Part shown: in pieces, positions 72 through 36,432 of the stretch
Layout: each line of letters begins with the position of its first letter
How positions within the stretch are numbered: position 1 is the first letter of the stretch
Origin: a virus
DNA: 36,432 nucleotides
IMG/VR virus record: IMGVR_UViG_3300036945_000926
Span: 1 to 36,432 of that record
Reading direction: 5' to 3' (one strand)
The notes under the pieces: generated by a model
What the model was told of the DNA's origin: nothing
Databases searched by the model: none
What the model saw: the letters and a program-made list of their open reading frames with translations, nothing else
Made by a program: the position numbers and the translations under genes

Positions 72-416
72 TCAATGCCCACCGATGACCTCCCCTCTTG
101 CCACACCCTTGACCAGCGTGTCCATGCTCTGATCTCCCAGTCCTTCGACCATGCTCTCGATGAACAGCGCCATTGTCCTGGCCGCCCACTCATACTGCTG
201 CGAGTACTCCCTCTTGCTCATGCTGCGGTGCAGCTCGTCGTGGCATGTCGAGCAGAGCGGCATGGTCCAATGGTCTGGAGCCTTCAGTGCCGTGCCTGAC
301 ATGCCGCCCGTGCCCTTGAAGTGGTGCGCCTGCACGCTGCGTTCGCTCTTGCAGCGAGCGCAGGGCAGGCTCGCTACCCACCGCAGGTAGCGCGGGCAGC
401 GCCACCTGGCGTTCAC
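72..416 (-). CDS. HNH-type nuclease (DUF968/Ref-like), next to cos
   Basis: A 114-aa protein with the layout Cys19-x2-Cys22, His31-His32, Cys55-x2-Cys58-His59 and His63. This is the zinc-binding beta-beta-alpha-metal nuclease pattern of DUF968 and Ref-type phage proteins. It starts at GTG (416) in a GTGA overlap with the Acb2-like gene. It is the last gene before the genome end, and on the circular map it lies directly upstream of the small terminase gene. HNH proteins in this position often assist cos cleavage and packaging. The alternative is a recombination-associated nuclease of the Ref type. The family call is from motif spacing; the packaging role is inferred from position. Confidence 0.75.
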   Translation of the reverse strand: MNARWRCPRYLRWVASLPCARCKSERSVQAHHFKGTGGMSGTALKAPDHWTMPLCSTCHDELHRSMSKREYSQQYEWAARTMALFIESMVEGLGDQSMDTLVKGVARGEVIGGH

Positions 417-703
417 ACAGGCTCGCTGGCGATCGCAGGACGTTCGTCCACACCGCCACCGCCGCCGGTGACGTCGACCATGCTCACCTCGGGCGGCTCG
501 CGACGCGCGATCGCCGCGTTCGCCCAGAACACAGCCTGCTCCACGTAGTTGATTGCCAGTGCCTGCTCCCGGCTTTCCGCAGTGAGACCGAGAATCTCTT
601 CAACGAGGTACTTCGCCTGGTCCCTGATCTTTTGGTAGCGCTCCATCTGATCGCCATGCGGGGCATGGTACGTGAATCTGTTGATCAGTTCTTTCGCGTC
701 CAT
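413..703 (-). CDS. Acb2-like anti-CBASS cyclic-nucleotide sponge
   Basis: A 96-aa protein whose first 70 residues match my recollection of the Acb2/Tad1 hairpin family: an N-terminal block RFTYHAPHGDQ, then ERYQKIRDQAK, an SREQALA block and the signature EQAVFWANAAIAR. Known Acb2 proteins of Pseudomonas phages and T4 (Vs.4) are about 90 aa, form hexamers and sequester cyclic di- and trinucleotides, which silences CBASS and related defences. Tyr12 lies where a ligand-contacting tyrosine is expected. The tail after residue 70 has a glycine run and looks disordered. ATG at 703 follows a clear GGAGG. The gene overlaps the HNH gene and lies in the early operon, as fits an anti-defence protein. Family membership is strong; which nucleotide it binds is unknown. 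Confidence 0.85.
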   Translation of the reverse strand: MDAKELINRFTYHAPHGDQMERYQKIRDQAKYLVEEILGLTAESREQALAINYVEQAVFWANAAIARREPPEVSMVDVTGGGGGVDERPAIASEPV

Positions 704-811
704 TTACGTTCCTCCAGTTGTGTCCTCGTGGCGTTATAGGCCGGGCCCGTCCCCGATGCCATCTGCTCCCTGCAGAACAGACGACAGACGAACCCGGCCC
801 AAGTCGCTACA

Positions 812-1162
812 TCAGACTCGGCTCGGCTTCCCACACGCACCCGGCGGGCCGGGGTCGGGCAGGTACGGATCGGACACCGGCGACCAGACGCCCACCCGGC
901 TGGTGGCATCCACGGCACGCACCCGAATGATCACCGAGACCAGCACTGGCAGGGTGAGCGTGGCTGAGCCGGTCGTCACCGTGCCCACGTCGATCCACGT
1001 GGTGCCGTTGTCCGTCGACTTCTGCACCTCGTAGTGGTGTACCGGGGCGCCCGTGGTCGGGGCTGCCCAGGTATAGGACTGGGTCATGGTGGTTGTCTGG
1101 GCGATGATCGTCAGCGGCGCCAGCAGGGCCAGTGCCGCCACGATCATGAACAGTCGTTTCAC
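812..1162 (-). CDS. Secreted single fibronectin-III-domain protein
   Basis: A 116-aa protein starting at GTG (1162), preceded by AAAGGAGT at ideal spacing. Residues 1-22 are a signal peptide: basic start, a hydrophobic core rich in Ala and Leu, and a cleavage site near Ala-Gln. The rest is one FN3-like beta-sandwich (YTWAAPTTG, HHYEVQKSTDNG, IRVRAVDA, GVWSPVSD) with a Pro/Gly-rich end. FN3 domains mediate binding to proteins or glycans. A separate exported FN3 protein in the early region, away from the tail genes, is unusual; it could act on the host envelope or be released. The domain call is from the strand pattern; the role is not known. Confidence 0.75.
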   Translation of the reverse strand: MKRLFMIVAALALLAPLTIIAQTTTMTQSYTWAAPTTGAPVHHYEVQKSTDNGTTWIDVGTVTTGSATLTLPVLVSVIIRVRAVDATSRVGVWSPVSDPYLPDPGPPGACGKPSRV

Positions 1163-3806: not shown

Positions 3807-4021
3807 GTCGGCTCCTCACGGGCCTGGCCGGTGAAGGCCTTCATCATGCTCCGGGTGGCGTCGATGCGAACCTGGGCGCGGCCTTTGATCACGGCGAGCA
3901 GGCGGTCGTGGGCTTCGGGGTCTGAGGGGTACTCGAGAGCCATCACGAGCAGCGCTTCCAGGTCGCGCAGGCGCTCGGAATCGCTCGGAGTCGACGGGTT
4001 GTCGTCGCGGCCGTGTGACAT
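3803..4021 (-). CDS. Small unknown protein, 72 aa
   Basis: ATG at 4021 forms a TGATG overlap with the preceding membrane-protein gene and has a GGGGG run upstream. The product is charged and helical, with an acidic/serine N-terminus (SHGRDDNPSTPSDSERLRD) and a basic second half. There is no membrane segment and no recognised family. Retention in a chain of overlapping genes supports it as real. Confidence 0.65.
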   Translation of the reverse strand: MSHGRDDNPSTPSDSERLRDLEALLVMALEYPSDPEAHDRLLAVIKGRAQVRIDATRSMMKAFTGQAREEPT

Positions 4022-4644
4022 CACAGCACCCCCGCGATGAAGGCCGGGGAGGCGACGGCGATCAGCACGCCGATGACGACCAAAGCGGCCACGACCCACA
4101 GCCAGGCCGGGAGGCTGTCGCACGGAGGTTCGTCCGCCACGAGGTTCATCAGGGACCTGGAGGCCTGCATGGCGCCCTGGTGACGCTCTCTCCAGGCTCG
4201 CATCTCCGGGTTTTCGGCGAAGGGGATGTCTTTCCACTCGTTCTCCACGGCGCGGAACGGCGCGAGTGGGTCTATTTCGGCCACCATCTTGCGCTGCCAG
4301 TCGCGAAAAGTGGCCGGCGCCAGCGCCTTGTCTGCGGCAGCCAGAAGCTCCAGGTCGCGGATGTGCCCGTAGGTGACGGCCCGGGGCGCCCCCGCGACTG
4401 TTCCACGGGGAACTGTGATCGTCTGGAACTCGAGGCCGGACGTCACGCGGTCGGTCGGGACCCACTTCCAGCGGATGCCCTTGTACTGGCCCCGCAGCGA
4501 ATCGTAGGGCCGCACGTTCTCGAGGCGCGCCAGCCGCTCCCCCAGCTTGGCCGACTCGGATTCCGAGAGGTCCCGGGACGTCAGCAGCAGGCCCACCAGG
4601 TCAGGCTTGCCGTCTTCCTGCTCGACAACGATCTGCCTGATCAT
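4021..4644 (-). CDS. Tail-anchored membrane protein, 207 aa
   Basis: The start is placed at ATG 4644 after GGGGG with a 5-base spacer, rather than 13 codons upstream. The first 175 residues are soluble, with several Trp/Arg-rich stretches (YKGIRWKWVPTDRV; ENEWKDIPFAENPEMRAWRERH). The protein ends in one hydrophobic helix of about 28 residues (LPAWLWVVAALVVIGVLIA). This topology puts the domain in the cytoplasm anchored to the inner membrane. The family is not recognised. A membrane anchor in an early operon could mean superinfection exclusion or replication tethering, but nothing in the sequence decides this. Confidence 0.75.
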   Translation of the reverse strand: MIRQIVVEQEDGKPDLVGLLLTSRDLSESESAKLGERLARLENVRPYDSLRGQYKGIRWKWVPTDRVTSGLEFQTITVPRGTVAGAPRAVTYGHIRDLELLAAADKALAPATFRDWQRKMVAEIDPLAPFRAVENEWKDIPFAENPEMRAWRERHQGAMQASRSLMNLVADEPPCDSLPAWLWVVAALVVIGVLIAVASPAFIAGVL

Positions 4645-4646
4645 CG

Positions 4647-4805
4647 CTACCCCCTCAGTCCGGTTGCGAGGTGCCAACGCCATTTGGCCGCGGTGATGGC
4701 CCCCACGACCGTGAGGACGGCTCCCACTACCCCAGCAGACCAGACGGCGGCCACCAGCGGGTCGATGCGCCTCTGGGCGGCTGGGGATCTCCAGTGGGCG
4801 GTCAC
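4647..4805 (-). CDS. Small membrane protein, 52 aa, GTG start
   Basis: The frame starts at GTG 4805, which overlaps the stop of the upstream gene as GTGA and follows GGAG with a 6-base spacer; it ends at TAG 4647. The product has one hydrophobic helix (PLVAAVWSAGVVGAVLTVV) flanked by Arg-rich ends, giving a small single-pass protein. It lies directly before the tail-anchored protein gene and has the same coupling style as its neighbours, which supports it although it is short. Function is unknown. Confidence 0.65.
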   Translation of the reverse strand: MTAHWRSPAAQRRIDPLVAAVWSAGVVGAVLTVVGAITAAKWRWHLATGLRG

Positions 4806-5104
4806 GGCCGACTCCTGATGCAGTCGATGAGCTTGACCAGCAGACGGTTGGTCTCTTCCTGCTTGGCCAACATTCGATCGAACGTCACCCAGGGTGCCCT
4901 GTTGAGGCTGAAGGCGTCCTGCTTGTGGATCGCCTGGTAGTCGACGGGGGTAGGCGCCGGTGGGGCCTCACCTACCAGGCGGCTCCCGATGATGTGAGAA
5001 TCACCCGCTGGGCAATTCAGCCAGGCCTGCATGTCGGTCCAGTTGCAGCGCGCTGCAACAAAGGCCCGTTCCATCAGCCACAGTTCGCGACGGGTGAGGT
5101 TCAT
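4802..5104 (-). CDS. Unknown 100-aa protein, shares an N-terminal motif with its neighbour
   Basis: ATG at 5104 overlaps the previous stop as ATGA. The N-terminus MNLTRRELWLMERAFVAAR resembles the internal LTAREKWLMEQAYLAG segment of the gene immediately upstream, and in both a Trp-Leu pair follows soon after (MQAWLNC; CAEWLQS). The two adjacent genes therefore look like diverged duplicates of one short helical motif. The C-terminal part is helical (RMLAKQEETNRLLVKLIDCIR). No known family is recognised. Confidence 0.7.
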   Translation of the reverse strand: MNLTRRELWLMERAFVAARCNWTDMQAWLNCPAGDSHIIGSRLVGEAPPAPTPVDYQAIHKQDAFSLNRAPWVTFDRMLAKQEETNRLLVKLIDCIRSRP

Positions 5105-5739
5105 TCCACACCGCCGTTCCACTGCAGCTCTTCCGGTTTCACTTCGACGAACGAGAGGACGCTGGATGAAGGGACCACGTAGGTGCGACATCCGTCCTCT
5201 TTGGCCGCCATCTCGGCCACTTTGCGGGCCTCGCTGTGGCTGAGATGCGGCCCCTTCACGCGACGGGCGTTGATCACGTAGTGGCCGTAGTTGACCACCC
5301 GATGACGACCGAGGAGCTCGGTGGTCCCCATGAAGGCAATCGACGAGTACTCAGCCAGGGATTGCTCGATTGAGATCGGGTGGAGTGGCTTCACGAGGTC
5401 GGGGAAAGTCGCAGCCGACTGCAGCCACTCTGCGCACGTGCGGCGCCGGGCGGATGGATGCTCCCTTGTCGGGACCCCGTTGTCGTCGCCGGCCAGGTAC
5501 GCCTGCTCCATCAGCCATTTCTCTCGGGCGGTCAGCTTGCTGGTCATCTCTCCCCCTTGGGGTGATTGGTGGTAGCCATGGTGGCCATTTGATCCTGGCC
5601 GGCGGTGGGCGTTGCCCAGGCCGCGCGAGCCGCATTCCGCCTCGACCCATGCGTCCATCTGGCGGTCCAGCCAATCCAGGCGGCTGAACAACAGGCTCGG
5701 GAGCCAGGGTGTGACTGCTTGGCGGTGCTCCGTAGTCAC
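5101..5739 (-). CDS. Unknown protein, 212 aa or 148 aa, two possible starts
   Basis: GTG at 5739 overlaps the upstream stop as GTGA and follows GGAGG, giving 212 aa. A second in-frame ATG at 5547 has its own strong GGGGGAGAG and would give 148 aa. The first 64 codons include a plausible helix (LDWLDRQMDAWVEAE) and then a His/Gly-rich low-complexity linker. The shared core starts with LTAREKWLMEQAYLAG and ends in a compact alpha/beta region (VVNYGHYVINARRVKGP; SEARKVAEMAAKEDGC). Both products may be made. No family is recognised. Confidence 0.65.
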   Translation of the reverse strand: MTTEHRQAVTPWLPSLLFSRLDWLDRQMDAWVEAECGSRGLGNAHRRPGSNGHHGYHQSPQGGEMTSKLTAREKWLMEQAYLAGDDNGVPTREHPSARRRTCAEWLQSAATFPDLVKPLHPISIEQSLAEYSSIAFMGTTELLGRHRVVNYGHYVINARRVKGPHLSHSEARKVAEMAAKEDGCRTYVVPSSSVLSFVEVKPEELQWNGGVE

Positions 5740-5987
5740 CGCATACCTCCCTGGCTGGCAGGTTTCCCCGGCTCCCCAGGTCCTTCTTCGCGCTCCCAGG
5801 GCAGCGTGTAGCCGTCCTGCTGCCACACCGACCAGTCCACGAAGCCGCCCACGCCGTGCTTGCCCTCGAGGTGCCGCAGGTTCGCCATCAGCTGGTCTTT
5901 GGTCAGGTGCCCCATCACGAACCTCGCCTGCTGCTCGATTGCCGCGCGGTGGTAGGCCTCAAGGCCCGGGTGCTTCGGATCGGTCAA
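5736..5987 (-). CDS. Unknown 83-aa protein, TTG start
   Basis: TTG at 5987 overlaps the stop of the replication-type gene as TTGA, the coupled form seen throughout this operon, with GGGAGAG upstream. The product is hydrophilic, with a helical first half (HRAAIEQQARFVMGHLTKDQL) and a Gly/Pro/Glu-rich tail that is probably disordered. No domain is recognised. It is probably real because of its position between two coupled genes. Confidence 0.6.
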   Translation of the reverse strand: MTDPKHPGLEAYHRAAIEQQARFVMGHLTKDQLMANLRHLEGKHGVGGFVDWSVWQQDGYTLPWEREEGPGEPGKPASQGGMR

Positions 5988-6958
5988 TTCGCCACTCTCC
6001 CAGTGTTCCCCGTGGAACCTCTTCGCTTCGCTGCTGCCAGGGCCGCTGCCGATGCTGCCCGGTCGGCCGGGCTCAGGTCAGGGTCGGGTTGCTCCGGCAG
6101 CTCGTGGCCGCGCGGACCCGACGGGCGCGCCACTTGGCGGCCCCCGTACAGCTCCCGGATCTCGTCGACGTGGGTGTCCAGCAGCTCGTCGTGGCCCTTG
6201 CCCTGGAGCCAGCCGGAAAGGCTCAGACCGTGGGGTTGCAGGAGGCGGGCAGCGAATTGCTGCTGCTTGCGGCTCGCGATCTGCGTCCTCCGGGTTTCCG
6301 GGGGAGCGTCAGCGACAACCGGGGGGGACTCCGGGACGGCGCCGCCGGCGGCCGCCCTGGTAGGTTCATCTACCGAAGAGGAAGAATCCCCCTCTTCTCC
6401 TAGACCTAGACCTAGACCTAGACCTACGGACGATTCCCTACCGATTCCCACAATCGTCGGGTGGTTGCCGGGGTGTTGCCCATCGGATTCCGGAATTTGA
6501 TGGGCAAGTAGTGGGTACCGCCACGACTCGCCGCCCCTCAGCGTGTTGCGGATCTCCGATTTCGTGGTCAGACGGGCCAATCCGCGGGCATATTCCGGGA
6601 ATTCCGCGAGCAGGTCAGCCGGCGGCAGCGGGTGCTGCGACCGGCGCCAGTACTTCTTGCCCGGGTTGTGCTCGAAGCGGCCCGGCAGGAACAGGTACGC
6701 CTTGCCGGCCACCACGTAGCGGGGAGCCAGGCGCACCACGTCGAGTTCTGCCAGCGCCGCCGCCACCTGGTCAACCGTTGCCGCGGCCGGGCCGAACAGG
6801 GCCGCGTGACGCATCCAGGTGAGAGGGTCGGCCAGCTCGCGGCCCTCGTGGTCGCACTCGAGGATCATGGCAGCGTAGATCTGCCTGGCCAGGCCCGAGC
6901 AGGCGAGGAACTTCGGGTTGCGCATCAGGGCGCTGTCGATCACGAATCCGTCGGTCAT
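5984..6958 (-). CDS. Probable phage replication initiator (winged-helix, O/DnaD-like)
   Basis: A 324-aa protein from ATG 6958 (AAGGGGGC upstream). Residues 1-115 have the pattern of phage replisome organisers: FVIDSALMRNPKFLACSG, RQIYAAMILECDHEGREL, a dP-x-W-x-R helix, a two-helix winged motif and LFLPGRFEHNPGKKYWRR. A long Ser/Gly/Pro-rich linker follows, including a (Gly-Leu)4 run, and the C-terminal 90 residues are charged and helical. Lambda O has this layout, with the origin inside its linker-coding region, and a hexanucleotide repeat lies at the same place here. No helicase, loader or polymerase gene is present, so host enzymes would have to be recruited. The assignment is by architecture, not certain homology. 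Confidence 0.6.
   Translation of the reverse strand: MTDGFVIDSALMRNPKFLACSGLARQIYAAMILECDHEGRELADPLTWMRHAALFGPAAATVDQVAAALAELDVVRLAPRYVVAGKAYLFLPGRFEHNPGKKYWRRSQHPLPPADLLAEFPEYARGLARLTTKSEIRNTLRGGESWRYPLLAHQIPESDGQHPGNHPTIVGIGRESSVGLGLGLGLGEEGDSSSSVDEPTRAAAGGAVPESPPVVADAPPETRRTQIASRKQQQFAARLLQPHGLSLSGWLQGKGHDELLDTHVDEIRELYGGRQVARPSGPRGHELPEQPDPDLSPADRAASAAALAAAKRRGSTGNTGRVAN
6399..6424. repeat. Tandem CCTAGA hexamers inside the initiator gene
   Basis: Four perfect CCTAGA copies and a partial fifth lie head to tail and encode the Gly-Leu run on the minus strand. They sit in the linker of the probable replication initiator, where lambda carries its origin iterons. They could be iterons, or simply slippage-generated codons. 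Confidence 0.55.
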
Positions 6959-7668
6959 GACCGAGCCCCCTTGTCTCTGAGCGCCACGCACAGCGGGCAC
7001 CCCTCCAGAAGTCCTGCGTACACGCGAGCCGACCTCGAATCGTAGACCTCGTGGTGTTCACGGCTGGGGATCGCCTGGCCGCAGAGCGTCAACTGGGAGG
7101 TTCCCGGGGCCAGGTGGTACTCCCGGGCCGCCAGCGGCCGTCCGCGGTGGTCTTTCCCGCGCTGGCGCCAGTAGACCGTCGCCATCGGGACCGGCTTTGC
7201 GGCGCCCAGCCGGCGCCACGCTTCGGCCGGGATCAGCTTGTTTTCGGCCAACTGCCGGAGCGTCATGTTTCGCAGGGCCTCGAGGCGCGCGGCCACGTCC
7301 GGACGCCACGCCGGTGCGGGCGTGCTGCCATCGGTGGCGCGGTAGGCAATGGCCCCCTCTTGGAGCTCGATCGTGACGCCCTGGCTCGTCGCCGTGCACG
7401 GCGGCAGGTCGATCCGGTCCTCCGGGTACTCCCTGCCGGTGCGCAGCGTGAGGATGCAGCTGGAGGCCTCCACGGCCAGGCGCTGGGCGAAGTCGGCGGT
7501 CAGACCGGTGCGCAGCACGAACTCGCTGCCGTCCACCGTTGACAGGCTGACCTTCCAGCCACGGGAGCCGGGGACGGATTCGCGAAGGGCGTGGGCGGCG
7601 ACGGCCTCGGAGAGGTTCTCGCGGATCAGGCTAACGGCTTCGCGCTCGAGGATGGCGGGGGCGGTCAT
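6955..7668 (-). CDS. Unknown 237-aa early protein
   Basis: ATG at 7668 is chosen over the long upstream extension, which lies antisense and out of frame with the nuclease-like gene; it overlaps that gene's stop. The first 100 residues look like an alpha/beta domain (EAVSLIRENLSEAVAAHALRE; GSEFVLRTGLTADFAQRL). A basic central region follows (YWRQRGKDHRGRPLAAREYHLAPG) and a C-terminal segment has a Cys pair (EGCPLCVALRDKG) and an upstream Cys (LTLCGQ), a possible metal site. No family is recognised. Its position beside the PD-(D/E)XK-like gene and the initiator suggests DNA metabolism, an inference only. Confidence 0.7.
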   Translation of the reverse strand: MTAPAILEREAVSLIRENLSEAVAAHALRESVPGSRGWKVSLSTVDGSEFVLRTGLTADFAQRLAVEASSCILTLRTGREYPEDRIDLPPCTATSQGVTIELQEGAIAYRATDGSTPAPAWRPDVAARLEALRNMTLRQLAENKLIPAEAWRRLGAAKPVPMATVYWRQRGKDHRGRPLAAREYHLAPGTSQLTLCGQAIPSREHHEVYDSRSARVYAGLLEGCPLCVALRDKGARS

Positions 7669-10899: not shown

Positions 10900-11640
10900 A
10901 TGACAACACGCAAACACGATACAGAAAAGTCGTTGGCTATCGTGACACGATGGTCAGCGGCCACGACTATTTTAGCCCTGCTGGCCGGGTGTTCGGTGTC
11001 GATGCGCTCTTTGACTGAAACGCGCTTTGTCCACGAGGCGTTCACATCTGATGCACTGCAGGCCGGTGGCATGGCCCTGCTCCCGATCACTGCTGGTTGG
11101 AAGACCGAGCCATTCAGGATTCAGACGGCCGAAGCCATGAATGCGCAGCTGCTGCAGGCCGTGCCGGGTGGGAGCACGTTGTCGTGCGAGGCCACGCTCG
11201 ACAGCCTAAACGCCCACGAACTGGTTGAGCCGCTGCAGGAGGCGCTGGCCGGGTATCGTGAGACGTCGATGTTCGACCGGAGGCGGATACAGGCTTTGCG
11301 CGAGGCCCTGGGAGTGCGTTACGCGCTGTACTGCGAGCTGCAGGACGTCGCGACGGCGTTCAAGCCAGCCGGGTTCATCGCGTCAGCCAAGGACATCGCC
11401 GACCTCACGGCACACTGCCTAGTTCTGGATTTGCAGTCCGGCGAAGTGGTCCAGGACATCTTCGGCCACGCGCGGTCCAGGGCCGACAAGGCAGTCGGCG
11501 AGATACCGTATCAGGAGTACGTCGAGACGCTCGTGACGTCGATCCTGGCTCAGCTGCCGGGCTCGGCGGTTGTCATCGTCCAGACACCGGAGGAGCCCAA
11601 CATGAGCGCGGCTCACCCGGGGAGCGTGCTCACGCAATGA
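10900..11640 (+). CDS. Lipoprotein encoded in the lysogeny operon
   Basis: A 246-aa protein with a type II signal peptide: basic N-terminus, hydrophobic core, and lipobox LLAG-Cys31. The mature part contains GGMALLPITAGWKTEPFRIQTAEAMNAQLL, a pattern seen in periplasmic lipoproteins with CsgG/TolB-N-like alpha/beta domains, then a conserved-looking YALYCELQDV strand and a Pro-rich tail. Residue +2 is Ser, which favours the outer membrane in enteric-type sorting. Because it is transcribed with the repressor and integrase it should be made in the lysogen, so it is a candidate lysogenic-conversion gene, for instance altering the envelope or blocking related phages. The lipobox is clear; the family link is weak. 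Confidence 0.75.
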   Translation: MTTRKHDTEKSLAIVTRWSAATTILALLAGCSVSMRSLTETRFVHEAFTSDALQAGGMALLPITAGWKTEPFRIQTAEAMNAQLLQAVPGGSTLSCEATLDSLNAHELVEPLQEALAGYRETSMFDRRRIQALREALGVRYALYCELQDVATAFKPAGFIASAKDIADLTAHCLVLDLQSGEVVQDIFGHARSRADKAVGEIPYQEYVETLVTSILAQLPGSAVVIVQTPEEPNMSAAHPGSVLTQ

Positions 11641-13136
11641 ACACCGCCCGCGACTGCCTCCTCTACGCCAGGTTCAGCTCCGACAAGCAGAACCCGAAGT
11701 CCTGCGACGACCAGCTGCGTGAAGCCCAGCGCTACGCTGCGACTCAAGGCTGGCGCATCAGGGGGCAGTTCCACGACGACGCAATCACTGGCGAACGCGG
11801 CAGGTCGGGGCGTGACGGATGGGACCAGCTCCTGTCCTTCGTCGAGGCCGGCGGCCTGGCAGCCGGGAGCGTCGTTCTCACCTGGGACGTCAACCGGTGG
11901 AGTCGGGAGTGGGCGGACGGGATGATCGAAGCCCTGCAGCTACACAAGCTGGGGGTGTCCCTGGCTGACACGCAGTTCGGGGTTTACGAACAGAACGGGC
12001 TCACGGGCAAGGTGATGCTCGCTTTGAAAATGGCGACGGCTGCGGAGTTCCTCACCGAGCTGCGGCGGGGCGTGATCCGCGGGCAGAAGGCGAAACGAGC
12101 CGAAGGGTATTGGTGCGGGGCCCCACCATACGGGTATCGGATTCAGCGGGAACCCGGTGGCGCCGTTCTGGTGGCCGACCCGATTGAGGCGCCGGCCGTC
12201 ATTTGGATCTTCCAGCAAATGGCCGCCGGCACGCTCCTGCCGCGCATTGCCGCCGACCTCCGCCGGCGCGAGGTGCTGACGCGCCGGGGCGGGCCCTGGA
12301 ACCCAGCGACCTTGCTGCGCATCGGACGGTCGCCCGTGTACCTTGGGGTGATCGCCCTGTACCCGGGCAGGGAACACCGCCGAACTGTCGCTGGGGAAGT
12401 TAAGCCTCCGGTGGAGGCCGTCACTATGCCGGGGCGACACCAGCCGCTCGTGAGCTGCGAGCTGTGGGACGCCGCCAACGCGCGAATCGCGAGCAAGGTT
12501 ATCCGTCCGTTCGTGCCGGGGCGCCCCCGGCCGCTCACCGGCCTGGTCGCCTGCGAGATCTGCGGAAGGTCGATGCGGGTGACAGGCGGGCCGGAACCGT
12601 ACCGCTACTACAAGTGCGGCGAGTACGGCGGCTGGGGTTACCAGTGCGTCAACAAGCGCATCGTGCGTATCGACCGCCTCGAGGCTGCGATCAGGACGCT
12701 CTCCTTGACCCTGGCCGGCGACGCGGCGGCCATCCACACCGCGGCCGCGCGCGCCGTTGAGGTCGAGTGGCGCCAGGCGGCCGCCAGCGCCGCCGCGCGC
12801 GGCCCGCTGCAGGCGGCTGTCACAGCCTGCGAGCACAAGCAGGAGCGCCTCCTGGCGGCTCTGTACGAAGGCAACGCCCCCGCGCTGGTGAATGAACGTT
12901 TGCGGCAGGTCCAGGACGAACTGGCGGCAGCCAGGGCCGCCCTCGACGCTGCTGGCACGGCTGTCGAACCGCTCAGCGTCGACGACCTGGTGGTCGATAT
13001 TCGCACCGCGCTCGAGACGTGGCAGGATGACTTCGCGTGGATCTCCCGACTGCAGGGCCGCCTGGTCGTGCCGGCCGATCCGGCGGCGCCGGTCATCCTC
13101 GAGGTGCTCGGGCAACGGCACGTGCTCGCCGTTTAG
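11637..13136 (+). CDS. Large serine recombinase / integrase
   Basis: A 499-aa protein starting at ATG 11637 in an ATGA overlap. The resolvase catalytic domain spans residues 5-150, with nucleophile Ser14 in LLYARFSSDKQN, a VNRWSRE block and an FLTELRRGVIRGQ helix-E region. A recombinase DNA-binding domain follows (GAPPYGYRIQ; NPATLLRIGRSPVYLG), then a zinc ribbon (CEICGRSM, YYKCGEYGGWGYQC) and a C-terminal coiled coil and helical region. Length and order are those of phage integrases such as phiC31 and Bxb1. It would join attP to a chromosomal attB without host factors; attP should be close by, in the non-coding stretch just downstream. No separate directionality factor is recognised. Confidence 0.95.
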   Translation: MNTARDCLLYARFSSDKQNPKSCDDQLREAQRYAATQGWRIRGQFHDDAITGERGRSGRDGWDQLLSFVEAGGLAAGSVVLTWDVNRWSREWADGMIEALQLHKLGVSLADTQFGVYEQNGLTGKVMLALKMATAAEFLTELRRGVIRGQKAKRAEGYWCGAPPYGYRIQREPGGAVLVADPIEAPAVIWIFQQMAAGTLLPRIAADLRRREVLTRRGGPWNPATLLRIGRSPVYLGVIALYPGREHRRTVAGEVKPPVEAVTMPGRHQPLVSCELWDAANARIASKVIRPFVPGRPRPLTGLVACEICGRSMRVTGGPEPYRYYKCGEYGGWGYQCVNKRIVRIDRLEAAIRTLSLTLAGDAAAIHTAAARAVEVEWRQAAASAAARGPLQAAVTACEHKQERLLAALYEGNAPALVNERLRQVQDELAAARAALDAAGTAVEPLSVDDLVVDIRTALETWQDDFAWISRLQGRLVVPADPAAPVILEVLGQRHVLAV

Positions 13137-33788: not shown

Positions 33789-35716
33789 CTCCTGCCCCTC
33801 CGGTACCGGTTGACGAAGGACGTTTGTCCTTGTGCCGTCACTCGGCGGGGCCCTGGATCTGTCACCACCTTCGGCTGCTGTTCGCCACCGGAATACCGGG
33901 CCTTGATTTCAGCCCGGCGCTTTTCCAGTGCGGCCCATACGGGGTTGAGCAGTAGCATCGCGCCGTAGGCATAAACGGTGGCGTCAAGCGCCTCGTTTCT
34001 GCCCCCGGGTCGGGTTACCACCCATTCCAGTACGGGGAAGCCTTTTCGAAATCGCAGGAGTCTCTTCTCCGCGCAGAGCTGGGAGAAGTACTCCGTGTCG
34101 AAGGCCTCGGTCGCCGGGAAATGGCAGAATCCGGGGCCCCGCTCAAGCAGTCGCAGCCGTGAATAAATCAGCGCCTTAATCGAGTCAACGCCGAGGATGT
34201 GCACATTCACTTTGCGCGGATCATCGCCCCTGCGCTTACGTTGTGGTGGCTCAAGCATTTGCACGCTCGAACCGCCCCTTCCCTTAATTGCGAAAATATT
34301 CCGCGCGGTGCGGCGCTCTACGTAGCCGTAAACCTGCCGGGCGGCATAGCCCGAGTCGATGGCCGCCGCAGAGATTGGCATAAGGTCACCGTGGATATGG
34401 CGATAGCGCTGCGTGAGCAGGGCCTCGTCGAGCTGCTTCCAGATATCGTGCTCGAGCGGATTACCATACAGGATACGGCGATCGATGCGCCACGACTCCT
34501 CGTTGATCCCATACCCGTCGACGACCAGCTCGCAGCGGTCCTGCTGAACGTCAACGCCAGCGACCAGCACCAGGACGCCCTCGGGAACTTCGGCCTCATA
34601 TACCTCGCGCCTAGCCATCAGCGGGTCTGGCTCAGCGCCGTCGGCCGCGGCGTTGCTGACCTCACCCAGGATGGTGTTGACCCACACCTTCATAGCTTCG
34701 GCTCCGCGGCGCTTTGCCCGCAGGAACCGGCGCACGCAGTCCTCCCAGGACAGCCAGTCGGGAGGGCTGTAGAGCGCGCTGGTGTGGTACCCCTCCACCA
34801 GTGACAGCTTGCTTTCGGCAGTGGCGATCCAGCGGCCGGCGGCGCAGATCTTGGTCTTGTGGTACTCCTCGAACTCATGGTCGCAGCTTGGGCAGCGGTA
34901 CCGGACGCTGCTGGGGTCGCCGTCGTCCCATACCAGGTTGCGCCAGAGAATCGGGTGGTACGCGCCGCAGCGGATACAGGGCACGTGCCAGTACTTCTGG
35001 TTCGTGTCGTTGAACTGCTTCGCAATCTGGCTGTAGCCGGAGATGGTTGGGGTTCCGTTGCCGTAGAGCTTCGCCGACTTGCCGAAGGTCGTGAGGCGGG
35101 CGCGCAGCAGCTCTACCACGTCGCCCTGGCCGCCGACGTCCCAGGGCATGTCGTCCATCTCATCGAGCAGGCCGTTCTTGATGCTGCTCGACTTCAGTGG
35201 CGACGGAACGTTTGCGCCGACCACGCGCAGAAACCCGCCCACGAAATCCTTGTAGAGCTGCGCATTGCCGCCGTCGCGGGACCGCTGCTCCGCGACCTTG
35301 CCGACGAAGCAGGGGCACTCATCGAACATCGGCTGGATGCGCTCGCGGGCCCACTCCTTGGCCTTATCGAGCGTCGGCCTGACAGCGAGGGTCGGCCCGC
35401 CGGCGTTGTCAGCCAGGTAGCCGATCCAGTTCTCGGCAACGGTCGAGCCGCCGATCTGGTGACCCTTCTGCCACCACACCTCTCGCGTCGGGTCGTCGGG
35501 GGACAGCTTCTCGAGGATCTCCCTCACCCAGGGCGTCTTCTCGATGCGGTACTGCCCACCGATCGCGCTGGTCTTAGTGGGCAGCAAGCGGTTCTTTTCG
35601 GCCCACTCGGCGACGGAGATGATGGGGTCCGGCATGAGCCCGGCCATGAACGTCGATCGTACGACCGCGGCGCCGTCGGCCAGGTCGCTGACCACGTCCT
35701 CGGTCAGGCTATACAT
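33785..35716 (-). CDS. A: Terminase large subunit, gpA family
   Basis: A 643-aa protein. The ATPase part has a variant Walker A at 84-92 (KGHQIGGST), Walker B LLDEMD at 183-188, and a four-Cys zinc site (Cys247, 250, 275, 278) as in gpA-type terminases. The nuclease part has Asp389 in VAGVDVQQD, Asp454 in AAIDSGYAA and ALDATVYAYG near residue 600. It cuts concatemers at cos and drives DNA into the prohead. ATG 35716 overlaps the TerS end by 8 bp without a good ribosome site, so translation is probably coupled. gpA enzymes make 12-base 5' overhangs, matching the terminal repeats. Confidence 0.95.
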   Translation of the reverse strand: MYSLTEDVVSDLADGAAVVRSTFMAGLMPDPIISVAEWAEKNRLLPTKTSAIGGQYRIEKTPWVREILEKLSPDDPTREVWWQKGHQIGGSTVAENWIGYLADNAGGPTLAVRPTLDKAKEWARERIQPMFDECPCFVGKVAEQRSRDGGNAQLYKDFVGGFLRVVGANVPSPLKSSSIKNGLLDEMDDMPWDVGGQGDVVELLRARLTTFGKSAKLYGNGTPTISGYSQIAKQFNDTNQKYWHVPCIRCGAYHPILWRNLVWDDGDPSSVRYRCPSCDHEFEEYHKTKICAAGRWIATAESKLSLVEGYHTSALYSPPDWLSWEDCVRRFLRAKRRGAEAMKVWVNTILGEVSNAAADGAEPDPLMARREVYEAEVPEGVLVLVAGVDVQQDRCELVVDGYGINEESWRIDRRILYGNPLEHDIWKQLDEALLTQRYRHIHGDLMPISAAAIDSGYAARQVYGYVERRTARNIFAIKGRGGSSVQMLEPPQRKRRGDDPRKVNVHILGVDSIKALIYSRLRLLERGPGFCHFPATEAFDTEYFSQLCAEKRLLRFRKGFPVLEWVVTRPGGRNEALDATVYAYGAMLLLNPVWAALEKRRAEIKARYSGGEQQPKVVTDPGPRRVTAQGQTSFVNRYRRGRS

Positions 35717-36420: not shown

Positions 36421-36432
36421 ATGCCGCACACC
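36421..36432. repeat. 12-bp terminal direct repeat, right end (cos overhang candidate)
   Basis: Identical to positions 1-12. It lies 100 bp upstream of the small terminase start. On a circle the two copies coincide, placing one 12-base cos site between the HNH nuclease and TerS genes, the standard cos position. Confidence 0.7.

Follow-up and report, generated by a model that had tools for sequence, protein, structure and literature searches.

The gene at positions 413-703 of this virus record encodes a helical-hairpin protein of the Acb2/Tad1 superfamily. It clearly belongs to a very common family that has already been named, and it is an ordinary example of that family. Our preferred explanation, to which we assign a probability of roughly 0.72, is that the protein would oligomerise (characterised relatives form a hexamer) and bind nucleotide second messengers produced by host defences, with cyclic di-, trinucleotide or gcADPR-like molecules as the candidate ligand classes. 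The bound messenger would be left uncleaved, and its sequestration would keep the defence effectors from being triggered. We infer the hexamer, the nucleotide binding and the anti-defence function of this protein, and the gene extends, by one phage, a large family whose members probably act as sponges for immune signals.

The gene and its place in the record

The window, that is, the whole stretch of DNA analysed, is the complete virus record of 36,432 bp (65.6% GC), in which nearly every gene lies on the minus strand. The features used below are as follows.

1-12: first copy of a 12-bp direct terminal repeat, ATGCCGCACACC, a probable cos overhang, filled in
72-416, minus strand: DUF968/HNH endonuclease gene, at the extreme end of the record
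413-703, minus strand: Acb2/Tad1 hairpin-domain gene (96-aa ORF; PF24729 and PHROG 1454 matches, AlphaFold2 model)
503-673, minus strand: hairpin domain, residues 11-67 of the Acb2-like protein
711-715, minus strand: Shine-Dalgarno GGAGG, seven bases 5' of the ATG (CTGGAGGAACGTAA followed by ATG)
3514-1913, minus strand: ParB-like protein
11637-13136, plus strand: serine integrase
36320-33785, minus strand: terminase small and large subunits (lambda-type TerS/TerL)
36421-36432: second copy of the 12-bp terminal repeat; a further contig (L006) has its end at this same base

The open reading frame runs on the minus strand from an ATG at 703 to a stop at 415-413, so that the coordinates given by the sequence-only reading were right, and all four motifs that it quoted (RFTYHAPHGDQ, ERYQKIRDQ and SREQALA among them) are found in the product. 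The frame is intact and its codons are GC3-biased on the minus strand. The stop codon of the Acb2-like gene shares bases with the GTG that starts the DUF968/HNH gene (GTGA), and co-translation of the two is therefore probable. Across the hairpin family this neighbour is not conserved, and DUF968/HNH was rejected as a functional partner, as it scored over the cut-off in just 1 of 48 homologue-bearing viral records. Just upstream of the Acb2-like gene, positions 812-1162 (minus strand) encode a small protein whose start is signal-like and which includes a stretch resembling fibronectin; it weakly matches tail fibre J (phrog_31), and the location is unusual for a tail-like protein. The early-region genes at 4021-4683, 5101-5826 and 5984-7000 (minus) and 10900-11640 (plus) had no family match in Pfam and PADLOC, nor, for three of them, in PHROGs.

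The earlier placement of the gene next to cos holds by inference. The 12-bp repeat is confined to the two record ends (a single comparison would give such a match by chance with a probability of about 2e-7), a second IMG/VR contig is 100% identical to the window across the 8645 bp compared and starts at exactly the same base, and the lambda-type TerS/TerL genes lie at the opposite end. Together, the unique repeat, the shared end point and the terminase type make a cos-type end likely, a caution being that end points can coincide between related assemblies.

Family assignment and predicted fold

The Acb2-like protein matches Pfam PF24729, a model that covers the Acb2 and Tad1 hairpins alike, at E = 2.6e-14 (53.6 bits against a cut-off of 27), with residues 11-67 spanning model positions 1-58, the entire 58-position model, which bears out the proposed membership in the Acb2/Tad1 hairpin family. 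The same model found no match in 14 control genomes, and therefore the match in the window does not arise by chance and chance resemblance to PF24729 is refuted. PHROG 1454, a family without a function label, was matched at 2.8e-20, and searches of NCBIfam and PADLOC with the protein returned no relevant match. A PDB search with the single sequence gave nothing significant, so a profile was required; built from 93 relatives and run against the PDB, it recovered 9PTQ, an entry of six chains deposited as 'Acb2 homolog 43' (1.9e-9), and Tad1 entries (about 8.5e-4), and did not reach the T4 and PaMx33 Acb2 structures. T4 Acb2 (Vs.4), which has been characterised experimentally, matches PF24729 end to end (7.1e-20). 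Compared with Vs.4 directly, the profile gave a weak match (71.6% probability) of just 21 columns, confined to the last helix, so that the connection to T4 Acb2 depends chiefly on the common Pfam model and the fold.

An AlphaFold2 monomer model computed on the 93-member alignment (mean pLDDT 87, about 98 over the core) places helices at residues 3-9, 19-40 and 45-68, a short N-terminal helix followed by two long antiparallel ones. This predicted arrangement of helices is the one described for the Acb2 protomer (PMC10419184, PMC12043709). Foldseek against BFVD returned six matches at E<=1e-3, all six of them Acb2/Tad1 hairpin proteins. Against the PDB the monomer had no significant match (top, Tad1 7UAW at E 1.7 and TM 0.28), and this search was discarded as support, being uninformative for a two-helix monomer. 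As for the N-terminal antiparallel beta-sheet domain of the Tad1 type, the model contains no strands and only 10 residues precede the hairpin domain.

The Gly-rich C-terminal tail, modelled at pLDDT 63-69, comprises 29 residues after R67, set against a median of 2 residues among the 137 aligned sequences, only 7 of which have 15 or more; the sequence-only reading was thus correct to regard it as an addition.

Distribution of relatives

Relatives are numerous in phage records (96 at E 1e-5 and 302 at E 1), at IMG/VR loci (at least 553 in one scan) and in bacterial genomes (69 loci). The closest of them form a compact subfamily (FxYH...R27...SRE...WANAAIAR) that is unlike T4 and PaMx33 Acb2 at some contact positions, and this branch, whose fixed residues are its own, occurs commonly in environmental phages and is, as far as we checked, without a stated ligand. 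It is strikingly uniform across phages and the genome loci of Bacillota, Actinomycetota, Deltaproteobacteria and Planctomycetota, a uniformity that, judged from the aligned sequences, exceeds what is expected of an arms-race protein. The genes that adjoin the relatives differ between phages, and none is a constant partner.

Two further observations concern annotation. Cyanophage S-2L (MW334946.1, about 35192-35414; L002:2976-3198) has an apparently unannotated hairpin-family gene (MSITNDELHTRFTYHPVKEGQ...WANAGVARRT) whose product is 53% identical to the window protein and which overlaps the start of an annotated 'tail assembly protein'. In Paenibacillus and Brevibacillus phage records (for example L004:2983-3189 and L021:1483-1698), family members carry the label 'phosphomannomutase', apparently a wrong annotation that has been passed from record to record.

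Contact residues and the nature of the signal

Residue roles were drawn from two Panoptes papers (PMC12657218, PMC12657230) and reviews, and residue counts were taken over the 137-sequence alignment. In T4 Acb2 the Y8A substitution disrupts cyclic dinucleotide binding (PMC12657218, PMC12657230). T4 Y8 aligns with Y12 of the window protein (Tyr/Phe in 125/137), a correspondence with which Pfam coordinates agree for the Tyr; T4 K23 and a PaMx33 Lys align with R27 (Arg in 135/137), and a PaMx33 Arg and a Tad1 Arg with R45 (Arg in 130/137). Residues K26 and R67 of PaMx33 are presumably ligand contacts. Other T4 positions are replaced, F82, which stacks on the base, by A66 and R79 by the invariant A63. 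At position 52 the window protein carries Asn (N52), where Thr stands in 122 of the 137 sequences and in T4, PaMx33 and 9PTQ, and its departures from the consensus are A34V, P42A and T52N. Mutations at T4 F82 and T68 (T68M at the latter) lower binding; PaMx33 too has Ala at the position of F82, and it retains Thr at that of T68. Residues H13, N62, A63 and R67 are near-fixed in the subfamily and absent from T4 and PaMx33 Acb2.

These replaced contacts bear on the name 'Acb2-family anti-CBASS gene' given in the sequence-only reading, of which the hairpin family stands and 'anti-CBASS' goes beyond the data, because PF24729 spans the Tad1 hairpin too, some of the contacts are replaced and the Vs.4 alignment covers 21 residues. 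A narrower form of our preferred explanation is that the protein is a hairpin sponge for a non-CBASS signal, such as a gcADPR-type or undescribed molecule, and that the fixed residues of the subfamily shape a different pocket. We regard this as possible and hold it tentatively: near-invariance of the four subfamily-specific residues across many phyla, the loss of R79 and of the F82 contact of T4 and a conserved helix closer to that of Tad1 than to T4 Vs.4 speak for it, whereas retention of Y12, which corresponds to a known cyclic dinucleotide contact, and of R27, which corresponds to an aligned Lys, and the deposition of the related small protein 9PTQ as an Acb2 homolog speak against it. The stronger proposal that the whole widespread WANAAIAR subfamily, this gene included, sequesters one conserved signal outside the known CBASS and Thoeris signals seems quite improbable to us; if true, it would suggest a common, undescribed nucleotide defence.

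Host defences and a possible role outside defence

No near phage was found by DNA with the first 25 kb of the record, and TerL is about 40% identical at best to proteins of phages and of samples of two bacterial phyla. We compared 50 mixed genomes carrying homologues with 100 genomes of a single bacterial family, and surveyed two systems, CBASS with the SMODS nucleotidyltransferase as marker and Thoeris with ThsB. In this comparison of a mixed with a single-family sample, SMODS was not enriched (3/50 carriers versus 10/100 reference genomes; Fisher p 0.55) and ThsB showed no significant excess (12/50 versus 15/100; Fisher p 0.18). The proposal of a probable cyclic-nucleotide defence in the host thus found no backing here, in a test that is weak because the reference is one bacterial family and the carriers are mixed. 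T4 Acb2 also triggers Panoptes (PMC12657218, PMC12657230), and therefore an Acb2-type gene can be a cost.

That carriers lack an excess of CBASS and ThsB would also suit a phage role outside defence, in nucleotide metabolism or as a regulatory adaptor, with the hairpin fold reused, as would the unusually strong conservation and the thyX, recA, SSB or ribonucleotide reductase genes that adjoin relatives in several phages. We nevertheless consider such a role unlikely, since the variable neighbours are as expected for a free-standing anti-defence gene and, to our knowledge, every characterised PF24729 member is a nucleotide sponge. Chance resemblance or a decayed gene, to which the consensus departures and the odd Gly tail might point, is highly implausible given the Pfam E-value, the confident fold, the intact GC3-biased minus-strand frame and the strong ribosome-binding site.

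Comparison with known systems

The sponge that we favour most resembles the small hairpin proteins of PF24729/PHROG 1454, with which it shares the full-length domain, size, predicted fold and FxYH...SRE...WANAAIAR signature; examples are 9PTQ, Mycobacterium phage StellaBean gp101 ('cyclic nucleotide sequestering protein') and Paenibacillus phage Bob gp74. Identity to the nearest viral relatives is up to 60%, and the window protein differs in its 29-residue Gly-rich tail and in having V34, A42 and N52 in place of the near-universal A, P and T.

Compared with Acb2 of T4 (Vs.4, 7UQ2) and PaMx33 (p26, 8H2J/8IXZ), it has the same Pfam domain and protomer fold and retains the ligand-contact Tyr and the aligned Lys/Arg, whereas the inter-helix insert is missing, T4 F82, R79 and T68 become A66, A63 and N52, and there is little direct sequence similarity. 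Acb2 assembles as a homohexamer that offers three sites for dinucleotides and two for trinucleotides. A 2024 Acb2 paper reportedly counted over 2,000 homologues, most of them expected to bind cyclic di- and trinucleotides alike; if that set takes in the WANAAIAR subfamily, the gene is fully ordinary. Tad1 (7UAV/7UAW, 8KBx) has a C-terminal hairpin helix, SRENACALTHVEEALMWMN, that aligns with SREQALAINYVEQAVFWAN of the window protein, and it is about 125 aa long with an N-terminal beta-sheet part, whereas the window protein is a 96-aa hairpin free of that part.
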